Below, in pieces: positions 4,801 to 59,836 of a DNA stretch of 59,836 nucleotides. The position numbers were made by a program, and so were the translations under genes. Positions within the stretch are counted from its first letter, which is position 1; each line of letters starts with the position of its first letter. The stretch lies in IMG/VR virus record IMGVR_UViG_3300046791_000436, positions 1 to 59,836 of that record. One strand, 5' to 3'. This stretch comes from a virus. A model generated the notes under the pieces. That model searched no databases. It was not told the origin of the DNA and saw nothing but the letters and a program-made list of their open reading frames with translations.

Positions 4801-5180
4801 CCACACTCACCCTACCCAAGATCGCCACCGCGAAGTCGGTGGACGAGAAGACCTACAAGGAGCTGTCGGGCTCGCTCGAGCCTGGCCAGCACTTGATCGA
4901 CTGCAGCGTGCGCCTGCGTGGCGTGCTGAAGAAGGGAACGCCCTTCAAGACGCCCGTGCCGGCCGCTGCCAATCCCTGGCGCCTGTTGGCGCTGGCGTTG
5001 AGCAAGCTGAACGTCGTCTCGATCGAGAGTCTCGTGCGCGAGGCCCTCGAGGCCAGCGACGAAACCGCAGATGCGGTGAAGAAAGAGGCGCAAGAGGCCA
5101 TCGAACGCATCGTCGCCGCGACCGAGCGCGAATCCTCGGGCAGGATCACGGGGAACGTGATCTGGGAGTTGCTTGCATGA
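4797..5180 (+). CDS. Hypothetical protein, 127 aa
   Basis: ATGA overlap with the previous gene; its own stop overlaps the methyltransferase start (ATGA), so it may be translated together with it. The sequence MTTLTLPKIATAKSVDEKTY leads into a helical C-terminal half (residues about 65-125, SIESLVREALEASDETADAV...). Similar 'resolvase-associated' small proteins occur in phage replication clusters, but I cannot assign a family. Confidence 0.65.
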   Translation: MTTLTLPKIATAKSVDEKTYKELSGSLEPGQHLIDCSVRLRGVLKKGTPFKTPVPAAANPWRLLALALSKLNVVSIESLVREALEASDETADAVKKEAQEAIERIVAATERESSGRITGNVIWELLA

Positions 5181-6463
5181 ATGCAGTCGACCTGTTCGCG
5201 GGTGCTGGTGGCTGGTCACACGGCTGGCGTATGGCAACCGAGACGGAGCCGATCGTCGCAGTGAACCACTGCGCACACGCCATCCAGCTGCACAAGCTGA
5301 ATCACCCCAGCACCGAGCACTTCCCGACGGACATCTGGTCCCTCGAGCCGAAGTCGGTGATCCGTGGCAGAAAGATCGAATGGTTGCACGGCTCGCCAGA
5401 CTGCACCCACTTTTCCAGGGCCAAGGGCGGCAAGCCGAAGAGCCAGAAGATCAGAGCGCTCGCGTGGGTGGTCTATCGCTGGGTGAAGGAAGCCCGCCCG
5501 AGCATCTTGTCCCTCGAGAACGTCGCAGAGTTCCTCGACTGGGGCCCGCTCGACAGCGAGGGGCAGCCGAACAAGGAGAAGAAGGGCGCGTCGTTCCGCG
5601 CCTTCGTCGCGAGCCTGCAGAACCTCGGCTACAAGGTCGACTGGCGCGTTCTGTGCGCTGCAGACTACGGCACCCCGACGGTGCGAAAGCGTCTCTTCTT
5701 GCTCGCGCGCTGCGACGGGCAACCGATCGAGTGGCCCGAGCCGACACACGGCGAGGGGCGGGAGCATCCGTGGCGCACAGCCGCGGAGTGCATCGACTGG
5801 AGCATCCCATGCAAGTCGATCTTCGGTAGGAAGAAGGAGCTGGCGCCGGCAACACAGCGGCGCATCGCGGCAGGCATCGTGCGCTACGTGCTGAATGGCA
5901 CGCCCTACATCACGCAGATGCCCAGCTCGGGTAACCAGCAGCCAGAGAAGGTGGCTGCCTTCCTGCAGCAGAACTTCACCGGCATGATCGGAAAGCCGAT
6001 GACGGTGCCAGTGCCGACGATCACTTCCATCGACCACCATAGTCTGGTGGCCGCTTCGCTGGTGCAGTCGGGCTACGGCGAGCGTCTCGGACAGGCGCCA
6101 CGAGCTCTCGACATCGAGAGGCCCTTGGGCACTGTAGTGTCCGGAGGCAGCAAGCATGCACTCGTAGCGGCCTTCCTGACCACCTACTATGGAGAAGGCG
6201 GCGGCACAGCGAATCCGGTCGACAGGCCGATGCCAGCTGTGGTGACAAAGGGCAGGCACGGGCTCGTGACCTACTCGATCGGCGACATCGGTCTTCGCAT
6301 GCTCGAGCCGCGTGAACTGGCAAGAGCGCAAGGATTTCCTGACAGCTACAAACTGGAGGGAACGAAGACGCAGCAGATCGCACGCATCGGAAACAGCGTG
6401 TGTCCCCAAGTAGTCGAAGCCCTCGTGAGGGCTAACACCCAACAGGAGATGGCGGTAGCATGA
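5177..6463 (+). CDS. dcm: DNA (cytosine-5-)-methyltransferase
   Basis: 428 residues, the normal size for a single-chain C5 enzyme; transfers a methyl group from S-adenosylmethionine to cytosine in DNA. Motif I is FAGAGGWS (residues 7-14). Motif IV is SPDCTHFS with the catalytic Cys at 76, the form common in phages instead of PPCQ. Motif VI is SLENV (112-116) and motif VIII VRKRLFLL (169-176). A target-recognition stretch fills about 190-370; motif IX (RELARAQGFP) and motif X (IGNSVCPQVVEAL, from about 404) follow. All catalytic elements are present, so it should be active. No cognate restriction endonuclease is visible, which suggests protection of phage DNA from host restriction rather than an R-M system. 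Confidence 0.93.
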   Translation: MNAVDLFAGAGGWSHGWRMATETEPIVAVNHCAHAIQLHKLNHPSTEHFPTDIWSLEPKSVIRGRKIEWLHGSPDCTHFSRAKGGKPKSQKIRALAWVVYRWVKEARPSILSLENVAEFLDWGPLDSEGQPNKEKKGASFRAFVASLQNLGYKVDWRVLCAADYGTPTVRKRLFLLARCDGQPIEWPEPTHGEGREHPWRTAAECIDWSIPCKSIFGRKKELAPATQRRIAAGIVRYVLNGTPYITQMPSSGNQQPEKVAAFLQQNFTGMIGKPMTVPVPTITSIDHHSLVAASLVQSGYGERLGQAPRALDIERPLGTVVSGGSKHALVAAFLTTYYGEGGGTANPVDRPMPAVVTKGRHGLVTYSIGDIGLRMLEPRELARAQGFPDSYKLEGTKTQQIARIGNSVCPQVVEALVRANTQQEMAVA

Positions 6464-7473: not shown

Positions 7474-7534
7474 CTTTTCTTGGAGGTATTGGCTAGTGTT
7501 CTGGCTTCTCTTCATCGGCGTGTGCGGTTTGTGA
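7457..7534 (+). CDS. Possible single-pass membrane micropeptide, 25 aa
   Basis: Overlaps the end of the previous gene. A basic start (MRKRGSFSWR) is followed by one hydrophobic stretch (YWLVFWLLFIGVCGL). GGGAG lies a few bases upstream. Too short to judge by family. The positively charged N-terminus plus membrane segment is what a real phage micropeptide would look like, but a chance ORF cannot be excluded. Confidence 0.35.
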   Translation: MRKRGSFSWRYWLVFWLLFIGVCGL

Positions 7535-7545
7535 GGTCCCCAAAA

Positions 7546-9447
7546 ATGACAGATTTCGCAGAGCGTTTGAAAGAGTTTCGTTCGATGCTCCCTGACGGAG
7601 AGACGAGAACGATCTCAGATCCTCTAGGGCAGAACGTCCCTCTTCCTTGGAAGGTTGACGATCTTCGCCAGGCTTTCGACCTCGCGCTGGAAGCCCTTCA
7701 CCGCCCCTCGGCGAAGCTGCGTCGGGCGGCGCAGATGCTCTGCGTCGAGTGGAACGATGCGCCCACCGGGACGAACGCCGTCCACTTCCTCGACAAGCAC
7801 ACGGCGATCCTCGCCTCCGCGCTCGCCGAGCCCGACGCGCCGCGTGACGAGGCGGGGCTGCTGCGGAAGCTGCGGGAGTGGCTAGTGAAGCGCGGAGATC
7901 GCTCCAATCCTGACAACTGGGCGCTCCTCGGAGAGACGGCTCGCGGCATGGAGACAGGGCGACTGCTCCTGTGGAGTCACACCGTTGAGGAAGTCGACCG
8001 CCTCCTCGCCTCGGCGCCCGAGCCCGTCGCGTCGCCCGAGAAGCCGCCCGCCACCGAACCGCCGATCGCGGGTGAGCCTCGCCGCTACAAACTGCGCATC
8101 GACCGACTCGACTTTACCGTTGCTCACGGCGTCAAGGTCACGGTCGACGACGCGATCAAGATGGCTGGCAAGAACCCGGAGACGCACACGCTCTACGAAC
8201 GCGGGCGTCGCGGCGAGCCGGACGACATCCTCGATCTTGGATGGGGTGAGTTGAACATCTACGACGAGCAGGCGACCTACTACACCGCGCCGAAGATCAT
8301 CAGCGGGAGCAGCACCGAACCGCCGATCGCGGGTGCGTCCGACGCGCTACGGGATGCTGCGCAACGCCTCGTTGACGGTTGCAATAGCGATGGGTGGTTC
8401 ACTCGTGCGACGCGCGAATGGACGAGGATCATCGCAGACCTCCGCGCCGCCCTCGCGCTCAAGGCGCCGCCGGCTGGCGAGGTCACGCCGGTTCCGCAAG
8501 GTGGGTTCGACGACATTGCCGCGGCGGTCAAGGCGGCGCGCGAGTGCTGGTCGATGGACCTGACCGACGACGCGCGGCGACGCGCTCGCGGGCACTGGAT
8601 GCCGGAACTGCTCGCTGCCATCGCCGCCGCCGAGTCGGAGCGCGACGCGGCGCGGAAGGAAGTCGTCCGCCTCGGCAAAGCGTGGGACGAGGATCGCGGC
8701 GACCTTTGCGACATCGGCATCGCGCTCGGCGTTGTGGTTCCTGAGCGCATGCGCGAGGTGAAGCCGGCCGTCGACAAGCTTCGCGCCGAACTCGCCGCCT
8801 CGCGGAAGCCGGCGCCGGTCGATGCGAAGCGAGTCGCCAAGATCGCGGCAATGGAGAAGGCGATGTTGTCCACGGTCTACAGCGGCGACTCCGAGCTTCG
8901 TCTCGTCACCAGGAACGAGATCCGCAAGGCCGTCGAGATGATGATGTCGGCTCCAGGCACCGCCCCCGAGCAGGCGAGGCGCGAGTTGCGGGAGCGAGTC
9001 GAAGCCGAGCCGGTGGCGACCGGATGGAATGACAAGCAGCACGTCGATGAACGCAAGCGAGTGCTCGCCCTCATCGACGCCATGCCGGTCGAGCCGCGCG
9101 CCGAGGCGGTGGCGGTTGACCCCGAGGTGATGGCGTGGGCGGAAGCTGACGCCTACGACTTCGATCTGAGCACCGAGATCGAGTCCCACGAACGATGCCA
9201 GCGAGCGAAGGCGGCGAAGTTCATCCTCTCGCTCCCCGCAGGCGCCCCGCCCTCCCCACCGCCCGAGAAGGCCGATGGGCGGCTGGAGGCGGCGATGGAG
9301 AAGCTGCGCAGCGTGGGCTTCGCGAAAAGCACTGGGGTAGTTGGCAACCTCGGGCTCGCCTTCACCCACGTCGATGAGGACCAATGCCTGCTCCGCGACG
9401 CCGTGCTGGCGCTGCACGACCGCATCGCGGCGAAGGAGGGAAAGTAG
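7546..9447 (+). CDS. Large modular protein with a multi-ubiquitin-like beta-grasp domain
   Basis: 633 residues from the ATG at 7546; GAGG lies upstream. Residues about 180-252 (RYKLRIDRLDFTVA... to ...YYTAPKII) fit the Multi_ubiq pattern of bacterial ubiquitin-like conjugation loci: strand 'YKLRID', a turn, 'VTVDDAIKMAGKNPETHTLY' (compare 'tgreil.LAGk.P....L'), 'DDILDLGWGELNIYD', then the closing 'YYTAPK'. The domain is bounded by TEPPIAG linkers (170-176 and 257-263), encoded by an identical 23-bp repeat. The rest looks like helical phage modules: 'AAESERDAARKEVVRLGKAW' at about 365-385, then Ala/Arg-rich helices. I see no Gly-Gly terminus. The role is unknown; interaction with a host ubiquitin-like defence pathway is a speculation. 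Codon use is visibly richer in CGC/GCG than upstream. Confidence 0.75.
   Translation: MTDFAERLKEFRSMLPDGETRTISDPLGQNVPLPWKVDDLRQAFDLALEALHRPSAKLRRAAQMLCVEWNDAPTGTNAVHFLDKHTAILASALAEPDAPRDEAGLLRKLREWLVKRGDRSNPDNWALLGETARGMETGRLLLWSHTVEEVDRLLASAPEPVASPEKPPATEPPIAGEPRRYKLRIDRLDFTVAHGVKVTVDDAIKMAGKNPETHTLYERGRRGEPDDILDLGWGELNIYDEQATYYTAPKIISGSSTEPPIAGASDALRDAAQRLVDGCNSDGWFTRATREWTRIIADLRAALALKAPPAGEVTPVPQGGFDDIAAAVKAARECWSMDLTDDARRRARGHWMPELLAAIAAAESERDAARKEVVRLGKAWDEDRGDLCDIGIALGVVVPERMREVKPAVDKLRAELAASRKPAPVDAKRVAKIAAMEKAMLSTVYSGDSELRLVTRNEIRKAVEMMMSAPGTAPEQARRELRERVEAEPVATGWNDKQHVDERKRVLALIDAMPVEPRAEAVAVDPEVMAWAEADAYDFDLSTEIESHERCQRAKAAKFILSLPAGAPPSPPPEKADGRLEAAMEKLRSVGFAKSTGVVGNLGLAFTHVDEDQCLLRDAVLALHDRIAAKEGK
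8052..8074. repeat. 23-bp direct repeat, copy 1
   Basis: Identical to 8313-8335. Both copies are in the same reading frame and encode TEPPIAG linkers on either side of the ubiquitin-like domain. Confidence 0.95.
8313..8335. repeat. 23-bp direct repeat, copy 2
   Basis: Second copy of 8052-8074. Recombination between the copies would cleanly remove 261 bp (87 codons, in frame) containing the ubiquitin-like domain. Confidence 0.95.
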
Positions 9448-16222: not shown

Positions 16223-16764
16223 ACAACCACCTGATGCTGGATCTCGAGACGTTCGGAACGTCTCGGGATGCTGCGATCGTCTCGATCGGAGCTGTCTGGT
16301 TTGATCCCTTCGGAGAAGGTGTTGGACAGCAGCTCGACGCAAAGATCGACTTCGCGAGCAGAAACATTGGCAGGCCAGACGTAGCCACCGTCGTGTGGTG
16401 GTTGCAGCAAAACCAGGAAGTTCAAACAGCCTTGCTCAGTGGATTCCGTGTCCACCTAGACAAAGCCTTACACAGCTTCTGCGAGCGCGTCGAGCTTGAA
16501 GGCCAAGTCGAAGGTTTTTGGTCGAACGGTCCGATGTTCGACGAGGCCCTCCTCCGCAGCGCGTTCGAGCGGTGTGAGATCGCCTGGCCAAAGCTGATTA
16601 GCTTCCGTGCTTCGCGCGACTTCCGCACGATCGTCCAAGTCGGCCAGATGTTCGGCATCCAGAGAACGCCAAGCGATCAGATCAAGCACGATGCTCTTGC
16701 TGACGCGATCGATCAGGCCAGCTATGTGCAGAAGGTGTTCAGGAGGCTTCATGCCCTCCGCTGA
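16219..16764 (+). CDS. DEDD-type 3'-5' exonuclease (Rv2179c/ExoVIII-like)
   Basis: 181 residues. Exo I MLDLETFG (Asp8, Glu10), Exo II in FWSNGPMFDEALL, Exo III in KHDALADAIDQA, with the His-Asp pair of DEDDh enzymes. The 'SRDAAIVSIGAVWFDP' strand and 'WWLQQNQEVQ' helix match the PF16473 phage and mycobacterial exonucleases. It likely trims nucleic acid with a free 3' end during replication or repair. It ends inside the ThyX start. Confidence 0.85.
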   Translation: MNNHLMLDLETFGTSRDAAIVSIGAVWFDPFGEGVGQQLDAKIDFASRNIGRPDVATVVWWLQQNQEVQTALLSGFRVHLDKALHSFCERVELEGQVEGFWSNGPMFDEALLRSAFERCEIAWPKLISFRASRDFRTIVQVGQMFGIQRTPSDQIKHDALADAIDQASYVQKVFRRLHALR

Positions 16765-17791
16765 ACTCATCTACGACGGCGACGAACTCGCTCGTCCCGC
16801 AGCGGCCCGCGACGACCAGATGCAAGGCACCGTTGCCGAGCGTCTGGCCGAGCTGGCTGGTCGCGAGTGCTACGACTCACTCGGCAAGGGTCGCGGCAGC
16901 GCCGACTACCACAAGCACATCCTCGAGGTCGGACATCTGTCCGTTCTCGAGCACTTCAATTTCACGGTCGAGCTTCCTCTGTCAGGAGAGAACGTCTCTT
17001 CTTTCCTGAACCGCCCAGGCACCTTTGTCAGCATCGAGAATGGGATCTTTCATGTGACGTTGAACTTGCGTTGCGTGCTGGACTGGGGCAAGTGGAACAA
17101 CCAAGGCTTCAACGCCGTGTTCCTGGCCTTGGCCTACTACGCCCGCGAGCTGGCGCCGCAGATCTTCCCTGTGCTTCAAGCCACGGATGGGACGATCCTG
17201 ACCAGGAAGCCGTTGAACACCGCTCTGGTCAAGCCAGACCATACGGAAGCTGAGTGGGTCAGTCTTCGATTGGTCGGCTCACGAGGCTTCTCGCATGAGA
17301 TGGTGAGGCACCGTTTCCGCACCGCGGTGTCGCAACGCAGCACACGCTACGTGGACGAGTCGACCAGCCCGTGGTGCTTGCATCCTTTAGTGCTGGAGTT
17401 CATTAAGCAGGAGAACCCTTCGATGGGTATCTCTGACACGGCTTATCTGTGTATGAAAGGAGCCAAAGAGGCCTACGACCAGAGTGTCGTTCTTCTCGAA
17501 CCATGGTTGATCGAGAAGGGCGTCGACAAGGCCACAGCACGCAAGCAGGCCCGTGGAGCTGCTCGAGGATTCCTCGGCAACGCTCTGCAGACCTCGATGA
17601 TCTATTCGGCCAGCATTGCGCAGTGGCGACGGATCCTCGCGCTTCGTTGCCATCCAGCAGCCGACGCGGAGATCCGCATGATCATGGCCGACGCTCTCCG
17701 CTGCCTGAAGGCCTCGCGCTACTCCGGCCGCTTCGAAGACCTGAACTTGGTGCCCAGTCCCGATGGGATCGGAGAGGTGCTTGCACCCTGA
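16751..17791 (+). CDS. thyX: Flavin-dependent thymidylate synthase
   Basis: 346 residues; an AGGAGG site sits 4 nt before the ATG. Makes dTMP from dUMP using methylene-tetrahydrofolate and FAD. Early part SVLEHFNFTV is the usual His-containing strand. The signature lies at 186-200: RHR then, after eight residues rather than the standard seven, S-T-R-Y. The protein is about 100 residues longer than typical ThyX, with additional sequence between about 105 and 165 and a C-terminal helical part. No ThyA is seen in the genome. Confidence 0.88.
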   Translation: MPSAELIYDGDELARPAAARDDQMQGTVAERLAELAGRECYDSLGKGRGSADYHKHILEVGHLSVLEHFNFTVELPLSGENVSSFLNRPGTFVSIENGIFHVTLNLRCVLDWGKWNNQGFNAVFLALAYYARELAPQIFPVLQATDGTILTRKPLNTALVKPDHTEAEWVSLRLVGSRGFSHEMVRHRFRTAVSQRSTRYVDESTSPWCLHPLVLEFIKQENPSMGISDTAYLCMKGAKEAYDQSVVLLEPWLIEKGVDKATARKQARGAARGFLGNALQTSMIYSASIAQWRRILALRCHPAADAEIRMIMADALRCLKASRYSGRFEDLNLVPSPDGIGEVLAP

Positions 17792-33735: not shown

Positions 33736-34581
33736 ATGCCCGGCGTCAACCTGACCGGTAAGCCGCAGACGAGTGACCTTGTCCTCGGTCGCGGATCTCT
33801 CAACTTCGCGCTGCTCGATGCGACCACCAAGAAGCCCCTCGGCTTCCGGCATCTGGGCAACTGCACGAACTTCGCCCTGACGATGGAGACCGAGGTGCTC
33901 GAGCACTTCAGCTCGCGCACGGGCATCCGCTCGATCGACCGCGAGATCATCTTGACCCAGAAGTGCGGGGTCTCGATCACGCTCGACGAGAACAGCTACC
34001 AGAACCTCGCTCTGTGGTTGTCGGGAGCTGCGACGGCAGCGGTGACCAACCCAGCCCGCACGACGGTCACCAACCAGCTGATCTCCTCGTCGGCTTTCAA
34101 GGGCTTCACCTACCAGCTGGTGAACTCCTCTGGCGATCGTCTGATGGACACCGCAACCGGCACGCTGGTCGTGAAGGCCGGACCGACCACAGGCCAGGAA
34201 AACACCCTGACGCTCGGCACCGACTACGAACACGACAGCAAGTGGGGCCTGATCTTCCTGATCCCAGGCGGCGGTGTGACCGATACGTGGAAGGTGACCT
34301 ACACCTACACGACGGCCAGCAACGAGAAGGCGATCGACACCGTCGACATCCTCACGCAGACCAAGATCAGCGGCTTCCTCCGCTTCATCATGATCAACGC
34401 TGCCAATAGCGACAAGCAAGAGATCCTCGATCTCCACAGCGTGACGTTGAAGGCGGACGGAGAGATGCAGCGAATCGGCGACGAGTTCGCGTCGATGACA
34501 TTCACCGGCTCTGCCGAACGCAACGAAGTCGGATACCCAACTTCGCCGGTCGGAAAACTCTACTTCCACGCGGACGCCTGA
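33736..34581 (+). CDS. Tail tube protein, paralogue 1
   Basis: 281 residues. Opening LTGKPQTSDLVLGRGSLNF, then PLGFRHLGNCTNFALTMETEV, EHFSSRTGIRSIDREI and GVSITLDENSYQNLALWLSG, all matched in the next gene. Beta-rich with a C-terminal 'EFASMTFTGSAERNE' strand, as in tail-tube proteins. A Ser/Thr-rich insertion sits at about 95-190. Confidence 0.75.
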   Translation: MPGVNLTGKPQTSDLVLGRGSLNFALLDATTKKPLGFRHLGNCTNFALTMETEVLEHFSSRTGIRSIDREIILTQKCGVSITLDENSYQNLALWLSGAATAAVTNPARTTVTNQLISSSAFKGFTYQLVNSSGDRLMDTATGTLVVKAGPTTGQENTLTLGTDYEHDSKWGLIFLIPGGGVTDTWKVTYTYTTASNEKAIDTVDILTQTKISGFLRFIMINAANSDKQEILDLHSVTLKADGEMQRIGDEFASMTFTGSAERNEVGYPTSPVGKLYFHADA

Positions 34582-34599: not shown

Positions 34600-35580
34600 A
34601 TGGCACTCGATCTCATCGGTGGCACTCCAGGCAACTATGTCCTCGGACGTGGCAAGCTCTACATCCAGGGCGAGTTCTCTGCGCAGCCTCTCGGTTGGCG
34701 CGATGTGGGCAACTGCACTGCCTTCACCGTCAACCAGGAGAGCGAGAAGAAGGAGCACCAGAGCTTCCTCACAGGCATCAAGACGATCGACCTCGAGGTC
34801 GCGATCTCGACCAAGGTCAACGTCTCGTTCACCCTGGACGAGGTTGCCAACTTCCTGAACCTCGCTCAGTTCTTCAGCGGCGAAGCCTTCAGCTACCCCT
34901 ACCTGGGCAGCAACATCATCAACGCGGCCAACGTCGACTCGGAATCGGTGGCCGATGCGATGTGGGGTGGCACCGGCCCGGTGCATGCCACGACCCAGAA
35001 CTTCCAAATGGCCGCCGTGCGGCGCAGTCTCTGGTATGACCTGTCGCTCAAGTTCTCGGCGACGGTGGCCGCGATTGCCGGCGGCGACATCTTCCGCGCC
35101 TACAACTTCCAGAGCGATCAAGTCTTCGAGGTCAGGAAGAACCCGACGACGCGCACCTCCAACGATGGCACTCTGCTGGTCGAGGGCACCGACTACACTC
35201 TCGACAAGAAGGAAGGCCGCATCAAGCTGCTGCCGGCTCTGACGTGGAACGAGGTCTCCGACGTGCTGCGTGTCGGCTGGTCTCGCCCGACCGATCCGGC
35301 GCCGGGCAGCCCTGCCGGCTTGGATCTCTACCTCGACTACGTCAAGATCCTGACGAAGAGCGCCCAATCGGTGGGCCTCAAGTTCGTCTTGGAGAATCCG
35401 AACGACTCCGACAAGCACACCGAGTTCGAGTTCTTCAAGGTGAAGCTGAATCCCGAAGGAGACTTCGCCGGCATCGGCGATGACTGGGCTTCGATCTCCT
35501 TCACGGGCGTCGCTTCCTCCATCGCCAGTCCGCCTGTGATGGCCAGCCCGTATGGCCGCATCACCGGCTCTCGTGCCTGA
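34600..35580 (+). CDS. Tail tube protein, paralogue 2
   Basis: 326 residues. Aligns with the preceding gene through the first 90 residues (NYVLGRGKLYI, PLGWRDVGNCTAFTVNQESE, FLTGIKTIDLEVAI, FTLDEVANFLNLAQFFSGEA) and again at the end (GDDWASISFTGVASS). The middle is different and longer. One copy may form the tube and the other a modified segment or initiator; which is which cannot be seen. Confidence 0.75.
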   Translation: MALDLIGGTPGNYVLGRGKLYIQGEFSAQPLGWRDVGNCTAFTVNQESEKKEHQSFLTGIKTIDLEVAISTKVNVSFTLDEVANFLNLAQFFSGEAFSYPYLGSNIINAANVDSESVADAMWGGTGPVHATTQNFQMAAVRRSLWYDLSLKFSATVAAIAGGDIFRAYNFQSDQVFEVRKNPTTRTSNDGTLLVEGTDYTLDKKEGRIKLLPALTWNEVSDVLRVGWSRPTDPAPGSPAGLDLYLDYVKILTKSAQSVGLKFVLENPNDSDKHTEFEFFKVKLNPEGDFAGIGDDWASISFTGVASSIASPPVMASPYGRITGSRA

Positions 35581-59123: not shown

Positions 59124-59836
59124 TCCAGAAAAACCCGGAGGATGCCATGTAGCAGTCCTACTCAAAAGCGAAAGACTCAAATACTCGCTTTTGGCGGCCT
59201 AGCGAGCCGTCAGCCGTGAACCAGGACCTTCGAAAGATGCAGGAAAAGAAAGCGCCGGCTCGGCGCTAGAACACAAATGCGAGCACTCGCCGGGTAGCTG
59301 AGGCGCCCGGCACGTTTATCCCAGCCAGTGGAACCGCCGCAGATCCGAGTAGCCCTCGGAAACAGGACGGGAAAGCTGAAGGTCTCAAGCCCTTGTAAAT
59401 TGGAGAGAGGACGTGCCTGCGGTAATCGATCTAACGTGGATCGGTAGCTCATTTCCAACCTAAGAAACTGGTTGCGACACAAGAGCGGTGTCAGCAGGTG
59501 TCCTAATGCGGCCCTCGAGGACTCGTGAGATACTCGGGGACGGTGACAAGCCCGTAAAACGTCCGGCCCGCGGGGTGACGAAAACGCAGAGTCAGGACAA
59601 GCCCTCGGTGAACGGCAAAGTTTCCGTAAGCCGGATCGGGATCTTCGCAAGCAACTGGACCATGCCTACCGGCTACAGAAAGGTTGCCCAAGTCGACCGG
59701 TCTCGAATGTCTCCCGAAAGCAGTCCCTAAGAAGGCGCATGTATTGGAGCGTCGATGGGATCTCCCAATGCAGCCAACGACGGTGGTAAGCCCGTGCGTA
59801 ATGCAGAACCGGAGAAAAGACATGCTACAGATTCTG
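59124..59836 (+). ncRNA. Candidate large structured RNA, part before the circle junction (continues at 1-112)
   Basis: No convincing gene lies between the stop codon at 59123 and the start at 113 past the junction, about 700 nt. The stretch is full of short GC-rich helices separated by A-rich loops. Examples: 59163-59170 with 59186-59193 (8 bp); 59200-59209 with 59256-59268; 59290-59294 with 59306-59310; 59427-59431 with 59439-59443; 59456-59460 with 59470-59474; 59476-59480 with 59488-59492. This is the style of large phage RNAs such as GOLLD or ROOL, and the length fits, but I cannot match it to either. Group I/II intron cores, RNase P and tmRNA signatures were looked for and not found. Strand is inferred from the flanking genes. 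Confidence 0.5.
59710..59836. repeat. Right copy of 127-bp terminal direct repeat
   Basis: Second copy of bases 1-127. Features near the end of the window continue directly at base 128 of the window start; in particular the structured RNA candidate spans this junction. Confidence 0.95.

Follow-up and report, generated by a model that had tools for sequence, protein, structure and literature searches.

A probable diverged Multi_ubiq-like module between two copies of a perfect in-frame repeat in a large phage protein

Bacterial ubiquitin-like domains (UBLs) of the Multi_ubiq family (PF14452) include those of BilA and BubA (PDB 8u38, 9cd2, 9d59, 9ea8), and many family members adjoin E2 and E1/JAB genes. 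Protection against phage has not been demonstrated for the Bub operons (PMC13373217). In phage lambda, the tail assembly protein I (gpI) has an N-terminal ubiquitin-like domain that is removed by the JAB peptidase gpK (PMC1779556; PMC12908700), and domain shuffling, or mosaicism, is already known in phage proteins (PMC10684548).

The module described here lies inside a 633-residue phage protein. It is like Multi_ubiq in the sequence and spacing of its strand1-strand2-helix-strand3 part and in its predicted beta-grasp, and this family gives its best profile match and is among the best structural matches, but it is a single internal copy in a large protein, stays below the Pfam threshold, and lacks the GxExF motif, the TEG tail and the E1, E2_E and JAB neighbours of the Bil and Bub systems. 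Like gpI it is encoded by a tailed phage and is unconjugated as far as known, whereas gpI is a tail-cluster protein with the domain at its N-terminus and the present module is internal, located outside the tail genes, Multi_ubiq-like, and found in a genome with no Prok-JAB match. As in other mosaic proteins, a discrete module that shows signs of recent exchange is set in a phage protein to which it is otherwise unrelated, but what indicates this is a perfect direct repeat, in frame on either side, and not a domain common to two phages. The module differs from the known cases of phage UBLs and shuffling in its family (Multi_ubiq), its place within the chain and the exact repeat that flanks it.

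The phage genome and the protein carrying the module

The window, i.e. the whole stretch of 59,836 nt that was analysed, is the genome of a tailed phage (59.8 kb), in which genes for DNA polymerase A, helicase, ThyX, head and tail proteins and the tape measure are present. An identical sequence of 127 nt is present at both ends (1–127 and 59710–59836), as a complete genome, circular or terminally redundant, would be expected to have. The phage is remote from known phages, the polymerase having one relative with 25% identity among 50,697 phage records. The features of the locus are the following:

7546..9447, + strand: 633-residue phage protein bearing the module (from the ORF listing; ATG at 7546, stop at 9447)
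8052..8074, + strand: left copy of the 23-nt repeat, CACCGAACCGCCGATCGCGGGTG, encoding the linker TEPPIAG
8075..8312, + strand: module between the repeats, GC 0.618 (gene parts on either side, 0.658 and 0.685)
8083..8229, + strand: Multi_ubiq-homologous core, residues 180–228 (HMM and hhalign with controls, AlphaFold model)
8230..8301, + strand: C-terminal part of the domain, residues 229–252, with a family sequence match that is not significant
8313..8335, + strand: right copy of the 23-nt repeat, in frame with the left one at a distance of 261 nt or 87 codons

The coordinates, frame and residue numbers given in the initial annotation are right, RYKLRID starting at residue 180 (nt 8083) when the protein is counted from the ATG at 7546. 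This start is preceded by GAGG at good spacing, and an alternative TTG start is located at 7480. The GC content at the three codon positions of the ORF (0.71/0.48/0.82) is of the coding type for this genome. Neither the protein nor the domain gave any match at threshold in Pfam, NCBIfam, PADLOC or PHROGs; the PHROG matches were all sub-threshold and no tail PHROG was found for the protein. The ORF follows a gene for a C5 DNA methyltransferase (5177–6463) and the head and tail genes lie about 20 kb downstream of it, so that the protein is probably not structural. The methyltransferase neighbours L020–L025 contain no UBL, and beyond the methyltransferase they have little in common with the window.

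Elsewhere in the genome, the major tail protein family with an Ig-like domain (phrog_807) is matched by each of two adjacent genes (33736–34581 and 34600–35580). In the 394-residue ORF at 16607–17791 the ThyX match is limited to residues 221–368, the first 220 residues are without explanation, and the GTG taken as the start may lie upstream of the real one.

Similarity to the Multi_ubiq family and predicted fold

The comparison with PF14452 proposed in the initial annotation gave no report for the protein or the domain even at E≤10, the curated Pfam score being 24.5 bits, which the phage domain does not reach. When the 79-residue domain was used as tblastn query, run blind against 72,556 plasmids, only four weak matches were obtained, but a genuine Multi_ubiq protein is among them (E=1), encoded in an E2/E1-JAB operon next to a Prok-E2_E gene and a ThiF-JAB gene, and family members were therefore gathered for our own profiles. 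These were made from 91 bacterial Multi_ubiq domains, 21 from plasmids and 70 from 64 bacterial loci. The segment ranks first of the 810 stop-to-stop ORFs of the window both with the 21-domain HMM (E=0.0048, runner-up 0.68) and with the 91-domain HMM (E=0.0013, runner-up 0.45), and its HMM score exceeds those of 2,000 shuffles. An HMM of a six-member subfamily gives E=2e-5, a value that is inflated since the members were picked partly for likeness to the query. In hhalign the segment reaches a probability of 91.2 (P=1e-6) against the family, compared with at most 5.0 for 150 shuffles and at most 3.3 for 300 decoys taken from pieces of other ORFs in the window. The resemblance to Multi_ubiq over residues 180–228 is far above chance, and kinship is supported for the strand1-strand2-helix-strand3 part, where the predicted elements are strand 1 (180–185), strand 2 (188–193), a helix (200–206) and strand 3 (214–218). 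Among the nearest relatives of the module are single-copy UBLs from Planctomycetes, Acidobacteria, Rhodothermales and Latescibacteria, which have the patterns Y-x-x-R-[IV]-D-R and K-x-P-[ED]-T-H-x-L-[FY] in common with it.

The Multi_ubiq pattern had been assigned to residues 180–252, and it holds for 180–228 but not for 229–252, where 11% of the shuffles score equally well against the family. The letters of the two motifs pointed out there, 'D.l.IYD' and 'YY..PK', are present, but the fit to the family is not significant, and the C-terminal core [VI]D[LF]..pG[IV]E[RK]F, with the GxExF-type motif found in 66 of 70 family domains, is absent from the phage module. AlphaFold predicts a short strand (228–230) and a long last strand (242–249) in the C-terminal part. 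Since several defining family features are absent, the module is classified as a diverged relative and not as a member of Multi_ubiq. A UBL type fused to an E2-like region was considered as a nearer relative of the C-terminal part, and the fit was not better. It is a 214-residue protein (L098:1471–2112) with a diverged ubiquitin-like N-terminal domain (19.7 bits to PF14452, below the cut-off) followed by an apparent E2-type region, and one copy is present in 385 genomes of that class.

The AlphaFold model made from the single sequence had a pLDDT of 47 and was discarded, while 29 family domains supplied as alignment gave a model with a pLDDT of 75.7, in which strands and helix are arranged as in a beta-grasp and residues 68–70 (model numbering) form a weak stretch. 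Because the alignment consisted of Multi_ubiq relatives, the predicted fold is partly imposed and is no independent proof. The top Foldseek matches in the PDB are mostly ubiquitin-like domains, together with Ras-binding and UBX domains that share the fold, and the bacterial multi-ubiquitin chains 9d5a, 9ea8, 9cd2 and 8u38 are matched with a probability of 1.00 and TM 0.53–0.60, although no match in the PDB has E≤0.001 and the best E is 0.004. When solved chains are compared with the Multi_ubiq profile, both BubA and BilA proteins are among the matches. With these restrictions, model and structural matches support the beta-grasp proposed in the initial annotation, a fold that the whole module may adopt.

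Searches with the whole protein or the domain in phages, plasmids, IMG/VR and GTDB genomes gave no relative of the phage protein, and the homologues in other phages that the initial annotation proposed to look for were not found. Degenerate DNA patterns gave 0, 2 and 2 matches in IMG/VR, none of them a UBL, and a match to the marine virus AG-345-L05 (E=2) was rejected as the ORF does not contain the family pattern. As no other phage or bacterial copy was found, there is no conservation evidence for a function.

On plasmid pPla86_1 a ThiF gene is preceded by a Multi_ubiq domain (CP036297.1 6836–7078) for which the PLSDB table shows no gene, and in AP024153.1 each of the three genes, Multi_ubiq, E2 and E1-JAB, carries the annotation of a hypothetical protein.

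A perfect direct repeat at the module boundaries

The two 23-nt copies bracket the module exactly and are both read in frame as TEPPIAG, with 23 of 23 nucleotides identical, synonymous sites included. If the terminal repeat and one tandem array are set aside, the genome has no other exact repeat of at least 20 nt, and the longest exact repeat was at most 16 nt in codon-order shuffles of the gene and at most 14 nt in 15 other genes. As the identity extends to synonymous positions, the repeat suggests a recent origin. It fits insertion or exchange of a module at the linker, or duplication of the linker. A search of IMG/VR with the first 21 nt revealed no other or empty allele and no donor.

The tandem array is located at 359–714, where ORFs on both strands overlap, and its repeats are spaced by 9 and 12 nt and about 61–78% similar.

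Missing conjugation features and possible roles of the module

A TEG-type ending, [TQ][ED]G, is present in 61 of 70 family domains, while the phage module has none and the chain continues for about 380 residues past the domain. No match to PF00899, PF14464 or PF14462, representing ThiF (E1), Prok-JAB and Prok-E2_E genes, was detected in the 59.8-kb record. For these reasons conjugation is unlikely, and with tail and enzyme matches absent, binding within the chain is the simplest reading. The lack of tail and partner enzymes, together with the placement between identical repeats, points to a recently shuffled interaction module and not to a working ubiquitin.

We consider it fairly probable (about 0.6) that the module is a captured, non-conjugated and diverged UBL descended from the bacterial Multi_ubiq (BubA/BilA) family, which serves as a protein-binding module within the chain of a mosaic phage protein. 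Phage domain shuffling would have put this presumptive beta-grasp domain into the protein. The site was probably a linker, and the 23-nt DNA of this linker now flanks the domain on both sides. The module would stay unconjugated as part of the 633-residue chain and may act as a binding surface, with the host ubiquitin-like machinery as one candidate ligand. The homology of residues 180–228, the perfect in-frame flanking repeat, the missing tail and the lack of recognizable ThiF, Prok-E2_E and Prok-JAB genes are direct observations; the fold of the whole module, a recent insertion or linker duplication and the use in binding are inferred.

For the module the initial annotation proposed, as a speculation, a role as decoy, substrate or inhibitor. 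A special case of the above explanation is that the module is a counter-defence decoy, mimicking host Multi_ubiq and binding E1, E2 or JAB without being transferable, so that a Bil- or Bub-type system is jammed. The module is homologous to the modifier of such systems and, lacking the tail, would be a non-productive mimic, and such operons are found in about 2–3% of the sampled genomes of two bacterial classes. We nevertheless regard this role as unlikely, since the module was not found again in the other phages searched, protection against phage by Bub operons is as yet undemonstrated, and the identity is only about 25%, the diverged part being the C-terminal one, in which the family has its most conserved motif. 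A rather doubtful extension is that the non-conjugatable multi-ubiquitin copy forms an exchangeable in-frame cassette bounded by the 23-nt repeats, which would block host Bil/Bub-type enzymes and be removed cleanly by recombination between the repeats when unneeded.

It is also improbable that the module is a beta-grasp or other small domain with a chance or very ancient likeness to Multi_ubiq, unrelated to ubiquitin-like conjugation systems. The sub-threshold Pfam score and the weak C-terminal half would agree with this, as would the chance occurrence of the string K-x-P-E-T-H-x-L-Y in L090, an unrelated viral protein. However, this protein has no score with the family HMM, so the string alone cannot explain the match, and the hhalign and HMM scores of the module are far outside all controls. 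That the module is an active modifier, released by a cut behind the domain and then conjugated through host enzymes, has homology only in its favour and is highly improbable given the internal position with about 380 residues following, the missing TEG tail and the lack of phage E1, E2_E or JAB matches.

If the module does bind ubiquitin-like enzymes of the host, it would represent a phage countermeasure against bacterial ubiquitination-like systems, and whether Bub operons act against phages could be tested directly. Even without binding of host enzymes, the Multi_ubiq family would be extended to an internal, non-conjugated phage adaptor, and the perfect flanking repeat exposes the gain or loss of a domain in a phage protein at the level of single bases.
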